Under the pieces are notes generated by a model. The model worked only from the letters and a program-made list of their open reading frames with translations, had not been told where the DNA came from and did not search any database. Positions 50,814 to 53,466 of a stretch of DNA of 53,466 nt are shown piece by piece. Both the position numbers and the translations under genes were made by a program. Position 1 is the stretch's first letter, and each line of letters opens with the position of its first letter. Where the stretch lies: positions 1 through 53,466 of the forward strand of contig JAHHIL010000038.1 in assembly GCA_019358975.1 (NCBI GenBank), in the 5' to 3' direction. This DNA is from Trichocoleus desertorum ATA4-8-CV12. GTDB lineage: Bacteria; Cyanobacteriota; Cyanobacteriia; FACHB-46.

Positions 50814-51440
50814 TTAGCGAATATTGGCGTTGGAATCGTTATAAATGTCACCACTTGCAGCGGCGGGCATAGAAACCGGAGCCTTAGGAATTTGCACCAC
50901 GGGCTGGTCTAACGCGATCATCAAAGCATCAGAATTAACGGATGATGCTGAGCTTGGCAGTTGCGCGTTTTGAGTCGCACCCGACCCTTCAATCGGTGAC
51001 TGGGCAAACTGAGGCCTGAACGCATCACTACCAGGCAAGAAGCCTGAAACCGCACCGACAAACAAAGCTGCAACCGCTGCACCACCCCAAAGCAGAATTT
51101 GCTTAGGCCGACGATTAACCCGCTTAAACACAGCATCCACTGTTTGCTCTACGGATTGGCTTGCGGCAGGTATTGGCATTGATTGCAAGCCTTGGCGAAG
51201 TTCTAGCAAGCGAGTATACAAGCGCTTTACAACTGGGTCTGTTGCTAGCCACTCTTCGACTTGCTTACGTTCTGCGGCGGTGACTTCACCATCTAGGTAA
51301 GCACTCAATAATTCAAAGCGATCGCGTTGGAGCATAGAAAGGGCACCCGTAGGCTGATGGGGAGTATCAATCTGTCCAGTGAAACCATCCTCAGAGGATG
51401 TGGATTCAGAGCGGTTACGGGACTCAAATTCAGGCATCAT
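50814..51440 (-). CDS. Membrane-anchored anti-sigma factor
   Basis: A 208-residue single-pass membrane protein. Its N-terminal cytoplasmic part contains an RseA/ZAS-like helical domain (RFELLSAYLDGEVTAAERKQ, VEEWLATDPVVKRLYTRLLE) that would bind the ECF sigma factor encoded just upstream. The canonical HxxxCxxC zinc motif is absent. A membrane helix follows near 117-134 (ILLWGGAAVAALFVGAVSGF), then a Ser/Ala/Gln-rich exported tail. It lies 145 bp downstream of the sigma gene on the same strand. Envelope signals presumably release sigma through this protein. Confidence 0.85.
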   Translation of the reverse strand: MMPEFESRNRSESTSSEDGFTGQIDTPHQPTGALSMLQRDRFELLSAYLDGEVTAAERKQVEEWLATDPVVKRLYTRLLELRQGLQSMPIPAASQSVEQTVDAVFKRVNRRPKQILLWGGAAVAALFVGAVSGFLPGSDAFRPQFAQSPIEGSGATQNAQLPSSASSVNSDALMIALDQPVVQIPKAPVSMPAAASGDIYNDSNANIR

Positions 51441-51585: not shown

Positions 51586-52245
51586 TTACTGACCATCTAA
51601 ATAATTCTGCAATTGGGACTGCAAGCGCTGTCTAGCACGAGCAATTCTTGACTTTACAGTACCCAAGGAAACGCCTGTAATCTCGGCAATTTCTTCGTAA
51701 GCCATGCCTTCAATTTCGCGCAACACAATGGTAGTGCGGAAAACTTCTGGCAAATCAGCGATCGCCTCATGAAGTTGGTCGTAAAACTCGCGGGTCGTTA
51801 AGTGTTCTTCTGGGCCTGGATCAGCAGAAGCGATCTCCCAATCCATTTCGCCGTCATCCATCGCTCGCGGCGCGTCTAGAGATAGAGGCTCTGAGACCCG
51901 CTTACGCTTCCGTAGTTCGTCATAGAACAAGTTGGTGGCAATGCGGCTGAGCCAACCCCGGAACTTGACTGGATCATTTAAGCGTTTGACGTTGCGGTAA
52001 ACCCGAATCCAGACTTCTTGAGCCAGATCTGAGCGATCCTGCCAATCGGGAGCAAGGTGATACAGCACCCGCTCTACATGGGATTGATAGCGCCGCATTA
52101 ATTCAGCAAATGCCGAGCGATCGGGCCGCAGCCCTTCCTGACACTGCAAAATTAAATCGTAGTTTGAGAGTTTTTCGGGTTGCACTGGCACTTGAGGAGG
52201 ATTCGCCTCAACCGTGGACCAGGATACAGGAAGGGAGTGACTCAT
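51586..52245 (-). CDS. ECF (group IV) RNA polymerase sigma factor
   Basis: A 219-residue extracytoplasmic-function sigma factor. Region 2 carries FAELMRRYQSHVERVLYHLA, DLAQEVWIRVYRNV and KFRGWLSRIATNLFYDELRK. An acidic linker leads to region 4 (LPEVFRTTIVLREIEGMAYE, EIAEITGVSLGTVKSRIARA, the helix-turn-helix). Order and pairing with the membrane anti-sigma gene recall the cyanobacterial SigG type, but the group is not proven by sequence alone. It likely controls an envelope-stress regulon. No ribosome-binding site is evident before the ATG. Confidence 0.92.
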   Translation of the reverse strand: MSHSLPVSWSTVEANPPQVPVQPEKLSNYDLILQCQEGLRPDRSAFAELMRRYQSHVERVLYHLAPDWQDRSDLAQEVWIRVYRNVKRLNDPVKFRGWLSRIATNLFYDELRKRKRVSEPLSLDAPRAMDDGEMDWEIASADPGPEEHLTTREFYDQLHEAIADLPEVFRTTIVLREIEGMAYEEIAEITGVSLGTVKSRIARARQRLQSQLQNYLDGQ

Positions 52246-52721: not shown

Positions 52722-52988
52722 GACGGGCTCTCCTCACAAAGTAGTTGAGTCAGGGCTACTGAAGTGGAGGGTGCTGGTTGAATATCGCCCATGCTACCCA
52801 AATCCCTGAATCCGCTGTACAGATTTAATGGTTTCTACAGCCTTACCTTAGGGTGCCCATCAATTACTAAAGGGAGTGCCTCAACTACTAAATAACCATG
52901 AAGCAAACAAGAAGTTGTGATGAAGTTTACGAGAGTGATGCGTAAAGCCCCCGCGTTTTAACCGGGGGATATCAGCGAATAGCCGAAT

Positions 52989-53153
52989 TTATTCGGCAGT
53001 GTCCTCCTTTTGGGGAGTGGGTAGGCGATCAATCCAGTCCTCAATCAACTGAGTCATGGTTTTCTTTCTCACTTTTGCGACCTGTCGTAGTTTCTGAAGC
53101 CTTGACTCTTCAACCCTAATATTGAGCGTCTTTTTCATCTTGTGTCTATACAT
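52989..53153 (-). CDS. Ribbon-helix-helix (CopG-like) protein within the TnpB element
   Basis: A 54-residue minus-strand ORF (ATG at 53153; a second ATG at 53138 gives 49 residues). MKKTLNIRVEESRLQKLRQV has the basic beta strand then helix of a CopG/Arc-type RHH DNA-binding domain, followed by a second helix (TMTQLIEDWIDRLP) with the usual turn between. It ends in a polar tail. It lies between the hairpin end and tnpB, in the opposite direction, 30 bp from tnpB. It is probably a regulator of the element or an antitoxin-like protein. The palindrome in the shared gap is a natural operator. Confidence 0.65.
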   Translation of the reverse strand: MYRHKMKKTLNIRVEESRLQKLRQVAKVRKKTMTQLIEDWIDRLPTPQKEDTAE

Positions 53154-53154
53154 T

Positions 53155-53170
53155 GCCTATGCAAATAGGC
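53155..53170. promoter_or_regulatory. Palindrome in the RHH/tnpB shared upstream region
   Basis: GCCTAT-GCAA-ATAGGC is a perfect 6-bp inverted repeat with a 4-bp centre. It sits directly upstream of both the RHH gene (start 53153) and tnpB (start 53184), where an RHH dimer pair could repress both. RHH proteins bind short palindromes of this size. Function is inferred. Confidence 0.5.
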
Positions 53171-53183
53171 TATCATAGAACTC

Positions 53184-53466
53184 ATGAAGACTCTGAAGTT
53201 TAAGCTCTATCAGCACAAGCGCAACCGCCATCTCAAGCGGTGCATCAATGCTGCTGGGGTGATTTATAACCATTGCATTGCTCTCCATCGTCGATACTAC
53301 CGCATGTGGAGTCAGCACTTGAGTTGCGCCAAGCTTCAGTCTCATATTGCCAAGCTACGGAAGCGTAAAGCGTTCTGGCAATGGGTCGGCTCTCAAGCCG
53401 TGCAAGATGTTTGCCAACGCATTGAGAAAGCATATCAACTGTTTTTTAAGCACCACAAACAAGGGG
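53184..53466 (+). CDS. tnpB: TnpB (IS605 OrfB) RNA-guided nuclease, N-terminal part
   Basis: The frame is open from ATG 53184 to the end of the window (94 codons visible). MKTLKFKLYQHKRNRHLKRC, then GVIYNHCIALHRRYYRMW, is the diagnostic N-terminus of TnpB, the ancestor of Cas12 nucleases. SQAVQDVCQRIEKAYQLFFK matches its conserved WED/REC helix. The RuvC-like catalytic residues and zinc ribbon would lie downstream, outside the window, so activity cannot be judged. No ribosome-binding site is visible. Confidence 0.85.
   Translation, partial: MKTLKFKLYQHKRNRHLKRCINAAGVIYNHCIALHRRYYRMWSQHLSCAKLQSHIAKLRKRKAFWQWVGSQAVQDVCQRIEKAYQLFFKHHKQG

Follow-up and report, generated by a model that had tools for sequence, protein, structure and literature searches.

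A small ribbon–helix–helix gene divergent from tnpB in a cyanobacterial IS200/IS605-type element: a candidate dedicated repressor with a putative tandem operator

RESULTS

Organization of the locus

The window, by which we mean the whole stretch of 53,466 nt that was analysed, makes up all of contig C38, which belongs to a cyanobacterial draft genome of 6.06 Mb. At the very end of this contig lies an IS200/IS605-type element with a small ribbon–helix–helix (RHH) gene and, divergent from it, a tnpB gene that is interrupted by the contig end. The features are:

52927–52930 (+), TTAC target site to the left of the element, an IS608-like cleavage site and presumed TAM, where homology between copies starts
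52931–53466 (+), left part of the IS200/IS605-type element, cut by the contig end
52948–52968 (+), subterminal left-end hairpin CCCCCG-N9-CGGGGG (stem 52948–52953/52963–52968), conserved among the four copies, with a similar hairpin in a sibling that carries tnpA
52989–53138 (−), RHH gene, 49 aa from a conserved Met at 53138 (54 aa from the first ATG at 53153), supported by Pfam profiles, a CopG-like AlphaFold2 model and signs of purifying selection
53142–53152 (+), putative operator half-site 1, GTGTCTATACA
53153–53163 (+), putative operator half-site 2, TTGCCTATGCA, matching half-site 1 at 8 of 11 positions
53147–53176 (+), predicted tnpB promoter: −35 TATACA (53147–53152), 18-bp spacer, −10 TATCAT (53171–53176)
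53155–53170 (no strand), perfect 6-4-6 palindrome GCCTAT-GCAA-ATAGGC
53184–53466 (+), 5′ part of tnpB (94 codons), which runs off the contig end (NCBIfam NF038281/NF040570)

Three further copies of the RHH–tnpB element are found elsewhere in the genome (C82, C4:83421 and C2:56469), with 89–91 % identity over nearly the whole stretch. Since the homology of the aligned copies begins at the TTAC and the flanks outside it are unrelated, the left end of the element is placed at 52931; the hairpin at 52948, which the initial annotation had taken for the element end, is subterminal. In the complete copies the right end consists of a hairpin and then GATCAA. TTAC and TCAA are the cleavage sites of IS608, and the subterminal hairpins, TTAC on the left, GATCAA on the right and unrelated flanks, with neither terminal inverted repeats nor a target duplication, are those of IS200/IS605 ends. 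All four copies retain the RHH gene, the gap with its putative operator, and tnpB. Y1 tnpA is absent from the RHH elements, and the RHH–tnpB element is therefore an IS1341-like non-autonomous form. Two tnpB relatives in the same genome (C4:39803 and C29:57183) are siblings that have Y1 tnpA in the RHH slot; both share a similar −10, and the left end of C4:39803 is also similar (TTAC, GTAAAGCCC-hairpin-GGGATATAAG). Loss of the RHH gene from other copies, which the initial annotation had named as telling against its proposal, was not seen in any of the three further copies, although the two related elements carry tnpA instead. The palindrome is perfect in only two of the four copies in this genome and in the nearest relatives.

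The start of tnpB at 53184 on the plus strand, proposed earlier, is borne out by matches to the NCBIfam TnpB models. The full copy of the gene, in L011, codes for a protein of 374 aa that could be aligned with solved TnpB structures across the RuvC D/E/D residues and the zinc finger; the copy in the window is cut at 94 aa.

Two solo left ends of this type of element were found, both at contig ends (G000 C77:59–131 and C2:362508–362575; L015 and L016), and element copies probably break the assembly. Adjoining the element in the window is a gene at 51586–52245 (−) that looks sigma-factor-like when its translation is judged by eye; by eye and from translation alone, the gene downstream of it (50814–51440, −) resembles an anti-sigma factor.

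The minus-strand gene and its product

Start codons of both the RHH and tnpB genes are predictions. For the RHH gene the internal Met at 53138 is more likely to be the start than the ATG at 53153, as the corresponding Met is the first residue in most relatives; the RHH–tnpB gap would then be 45 bp, not the 30 bp first reported. Among 21 RHH relatives, 15 match Pfam DUF6364 (best E 4e-6) and four match RHH_1 (best E 1e-4). CopG_antitoxin and TacA1 profiles also matched weakly. In the AlphaFold2 model (mean pLDDT 84.8), helices span residues 11–24 and 28–37. Model and Foldseek together give the strand–helix–helix order, with the strand extended but lacking a DSSP assignment because the dimer is absent from this monomer model. 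Foldseek against the PDB places CopG first, followed by CopASO, PutA, ParG and Arc, with a probability of up to 0.95 and E-values above 0.3, as expected at about 37 aligned residues. By profile and predicted fold, then, the product is an RHH protein, and this part of the initial annotation stands. The protein has a short, variable C-terminal tail, which is the region that antitoxins use for binding.

Copies of the RHH gene within the genome differ with dN of 0.01–0.04 and dS of 0.16–0.37. Median dN/dS is 0.40 for tnpB-linked genes (130 pairs) and 0.15 for genes linked to the non-coding stretch described below (129 pairs), the pairs being related by descent and not independent, so that the medians overstate the independent evidence. 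Values well below 1 indicate that the gene is under purifying selection.

A tandem 11-bp repeat overlies the predicted tnpB promoter

Among 28 dissimilar RHH–tnpB gaps (RHH start to tnpB start), the best self-match at a spacing of 11 bp reached 184 versus 121.5 (sd 5.2) in dinucleotide shuffles (z = 11.9, which overstates the independent evidence as the gaps are related by descent), and other spacings from 5 to 18 bp in the same gaps gave z between −2.7 and 2.3. Upstream of 38 RHH-less tnpB genes no 11-bp repeat was detected (z = −2.1, mononucleotide shuffles). The consensus of the putative half-site is approximately TGGCTACMCAA, beginning no more than a few bp from the RHH start codon in most clear cases. 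CopG/Arc repressors have tandem sites one helical turn apart beside their own gene, and the 11-bp direct repeat has this arrangement.

The palindrome at 53155–53170 is real and perfect, as first described, but its proposed role as a shared control site is rejected: 8.8 % of shuffled gaps equal it, it is perfect only in close relatives, and the conserved signal is the tandem 11-bp repeat. A test for inverted repeats with 8-bp arms on the window gap gave p = 0.15, and perfect inverted repeats with 6-bp arms occur in 7 of the 28 RHH–tnpB gaps versus 2.7 expected.

Scanning of the window gap returned one promoter-like site, with a weak −35 (four of six matches). As about 0.7 such sites arise by chance, the weight of the promoter evidence is carried by a cross-family box, [TG]GnTAnnAT: in 14 of 25 gaps, versus 0.32 expected, it stands at a distance of 25–34 bp from the start of the RHH gene. 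With the −10 at 53171–53176, transcription is predicted to start near the tnpB ATG at 53184, and in the window the 11-bp repeat covers the −35 and the spacer of the predicted promoter.

Distribution of the RHH gene and its partners

A search of 291 cyanobacterial genomes (130 genera sampled) found the RHH gene in 25 genomes from 21 genera, often in several copies, and the window RHH sequence searched against GTDB species genomes gave 73 loci, all cyanobacterial. The 155 RHH loci, again all cyanobacterial, comprise 87 with tnpB (intact or decayed) directly divergent, 50 with a conserved non-coding stretch in that place, 10 with neither and 8 too close to a contig end; having been gathered by RHH search, they give the frequency of RHH with tnpB and not that of tnpB with RHH. 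Among 43 tnpB loci taken regardless of RHH, the RHH gene accompanied 3 and a detected Y1 tnpA 5. In the genome of the window, 8 of 11 RHH-profile matches are divergent to tnpB, beside several different TnpBs. Some RHH copies are degraded.

Distances between RHH proteins and between TnpBs are correlated (Mantel r = 0.39, with 0 of 5000 permutations as high). Partners have also been swapped: RHH versus TnpB identity is 88 % versus 17 % for L167/L170, 81 % versus 29 % for L018/L020 and 80 % versus 16 % for L034/L100. Because the RHH cassette thus sits beside TnpBs only 16–29 % alike, and beside a non-coding partner as well, it would appear to act on DNA and not on one TnpB; the swaps are more easily explained by a cassette that acts on DNA than by a partner that binds TnpB.

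The genome of the window also holds two RHH-only elements of 562 bp, 97 % identical to one another (G000 C10:46496 and C4:158807; L263 and L264), with a different RHH lineage, IS605-like ends and the right end GTGTCAA.

RHH elements without tnpB

At about 50 RHH loci, mainly in Nostocales (e.g. L142:2076–2455 (−), L143, L160 and L186), a non-coding stretch of about 360 nt stands in the tnpB position, beginning about 40 bp from the RHH gene and running to a right-end hairpin and GTACTTCAC; in RHH–tnpB elements of that order, too, the end is formed by a similar hairpin and GTCAC. RNAalifold gives 44 pairs, 19 of them with compensatory changes; part of these fall within the right-end hairpin, whose conservation may be at the DNA level. 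In Rfam the stretch had no match above the gathering score and no credible one below it. We suggest that these elements are non-autonomous relatives that retain an omega-RNA-like segment, possibly a solo omega RNA; in six genomes no nuclease-bearing full-length parent was seen. An origin from HEARO/IscB was considered and rejected, given the Rfam result and 30 IscB loci with neither RHH gene nor stretch. Within the gaps of these elements the clearer signal comes from inverted repeats, with perfect 6-bp arms in 11 of 20 versus 2.5 expected (for example AAATAGACATAC / GTATGTCTATTT in L160).

As a separate observation, a sequence in the genome of the window (L013:7301–7351, −) has an Rfam match to NsiR1, the nitrogen stress-induced RNA.

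DISCUSSION

The analyses presented above make it likely, in our judgement, that the element is a non-autonomous IS200/IS605-type transposon that carries tnpB, a gene for an RNA-guided nuclease, together with a dedicated, probably autoregulating repressor of tnpB. We favour repression because the copies keep the layout, tnpB is divergent at 87 of 155 loci, the 11-bp repeat lies on the predicted promoter, the modelled fold is CopG-like and dN/dS is low, and because CvkR represses cas12k from the same position (PMC9938897). That most sampled tnpB genes have no RHH gene counts against it. The dedicated RHH control module first proposed from the window is well supported by comparison (the three further copies, the divergent loci and the selection on the gene), but with the direct repeat, not the palindrome, as its candidate control site.

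From sequence comparison we infer the following mechanism. The 49-aa RHH protein would most likely bind as two dimers to the two adjacent 11-bp half-sites, 22 bp in all as for CopG, situated between the RHH start codon and the tnpB promoter. Bound there, it would keep RNA polymerase off the tnpB promoter by covering the −35 and spacer, and its own promoter would probably be damped too. TnpB may in this way be kept low once the element is established, with a burst when the element enters a repressor-free cell, and RHH elements could be mobilized in trans by the TnpA of sibling elements.

RHH proteins can also activate, and the weak −35 could need help, so that RHH might be an activator or switch of the divergent promoter. 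We regard this as unlikely, given that the sites cover the −35 and spacer instead of lying upstream, and that repression is the mode of action of minimal RHH proteins and of CvkR, the analogue in CAST. Somewhat less probable still is a role in transposition, with the protein binding the left end of the element or standing in for TnpA-linked control, and tnpB regulation secondary. The RHH gene does occupy the tnpA slot of the siblings, between terminal hairpin and tnpB, and is kept in short elements without tnpB, but the repeated site is at the promoter, with 200 bp between it and the left end, and its position follows the start of the divergent gene; in addition, Y1 elements transpose without RHH. 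We give slightly less credence again to an antitoxin-like partner that binds and inhibits TnpB directly, DNA binding being secondary. Many RHH proteins are antitoxins, the weak CopG_antitoxin and TacA1 matches point the same way and TnpB is a DNA-cutting enzyme; against this, RHH and tnpB are divergent and do not share the operon typical of type II toxin–antitoxin systems, near-identical RHH proteins stand beside TnpBs 17 % alike (L167/L170), 50 RHH loci are without any tnpB, and the C-terminal tail is short and variable. Scarcely credible is the view that the RHH gene has no role and is just a passenger or a remnant in decay, as might be read from the 3 of 43 tnpB loci and the degraded copies, considering the dN/dS well below 1, a position and operator fixed over many genera, and several RHH lineages beside different TnpBs within one genome.

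Extending the repressor reading beyond tnpB, we raise, as a tentative and rather doubtful proposal, a whole cyanobacterial class of IS200/IS605-like elements under RHH control. In these a mobile repressor–operator cassette would govern either TnpB or, where the nuclease gene is absent, a structured RNA of about 360 nt reaching the right end; the RNA-only elements would carry just a guide RNA and, under control of the repressor, rely on TnpB acting in trans.

Comparison with known systems

To our knowledge, transposon control of RNA-guided nucleases is little known outside CAST. Our literature search, which covered few subscription papers and few preprints outside PMC, found no report of RHH genes paired with tnpB, a weak sign of novelty. 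A minimal repressor–operator cassette on TnpB elements, present in 21 of 130 sampled cyanobacterial genera, would offer a directly testable answer on nuclease control, and would supply small matched repressor–operator pairs for controlling TnpB.

With IS605 (divergent tnpA–tnpB) and IS1341 (tnpB alone) the element shares TnpB, subterminal hairpins and TTAC/TCAA ends and, with IS1341, the lack of its own transposase; it differs in having an RHH gene and putative operator in the slot held by tnpA in siblings of the same genome. The 50 tnpB-less RHH loci resemble PATE-like short IS200/IS605 derivatives in being short elements with IS200/IS605-like ends, but retain an intact RHH gene and the structured stretch with compensatory changes. 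CopG of plasmid pMV158 (PDB 1b01, 1ea4), the best structural match, is likewise a minimal RHH protein (about 45 aa); in 1ea4 it is bound to 22-bp DNA, and here the putative site is 2 × 11 bp. CopG controls its own plasmid replication operon, whereas the main proposed target here is a divergent nuclease gene.

The nearest parallel in layout is the cyanobacterial type V-K CAST, in which a reverse-oriented gene for either the MerR-type CvkR or an RHH-type Arc_1/Arc_2 protein lies upstream of cas12k, repression of cas12k by CvkR has been shown, and the cvkR and cas12k mRNAs are leaderless (PMC9938897). Two of its three regulator types are RHH proteins of 53–72 aa, and the precedent for repression is CvkR (PMC9938897). 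Nine cas12k loci were recovered again here: a MerR-type gene accompanies five of them, and two others (L283 and L284) have an Arc-type RHH gene (MAEETREVRGRVPKDIK...) that diverges from cas12k at a distance of 163 bp. With these two Arc genes as examples, our RHH profile detected no homology; the common feature is the layout. The element described here has TnpB as its effector and is a simple IS200/IS605-type element, as against Cas12k in a Tn7-like transposon; no TniQ was found in the genome of the window, where the RHH partner is tnpB and not cas12k. What the two cyanobacterial systems appear to share is a gene for a small DNA-binding regulator that lies, in reverse orientation, immediately ahead of the gene for a TnpB-family effector, with leaderless or near-leaderless starts. 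The RHH–tnpB cassette would also suggest that divergent repressors beside TnpB-family effectors arose more than once.
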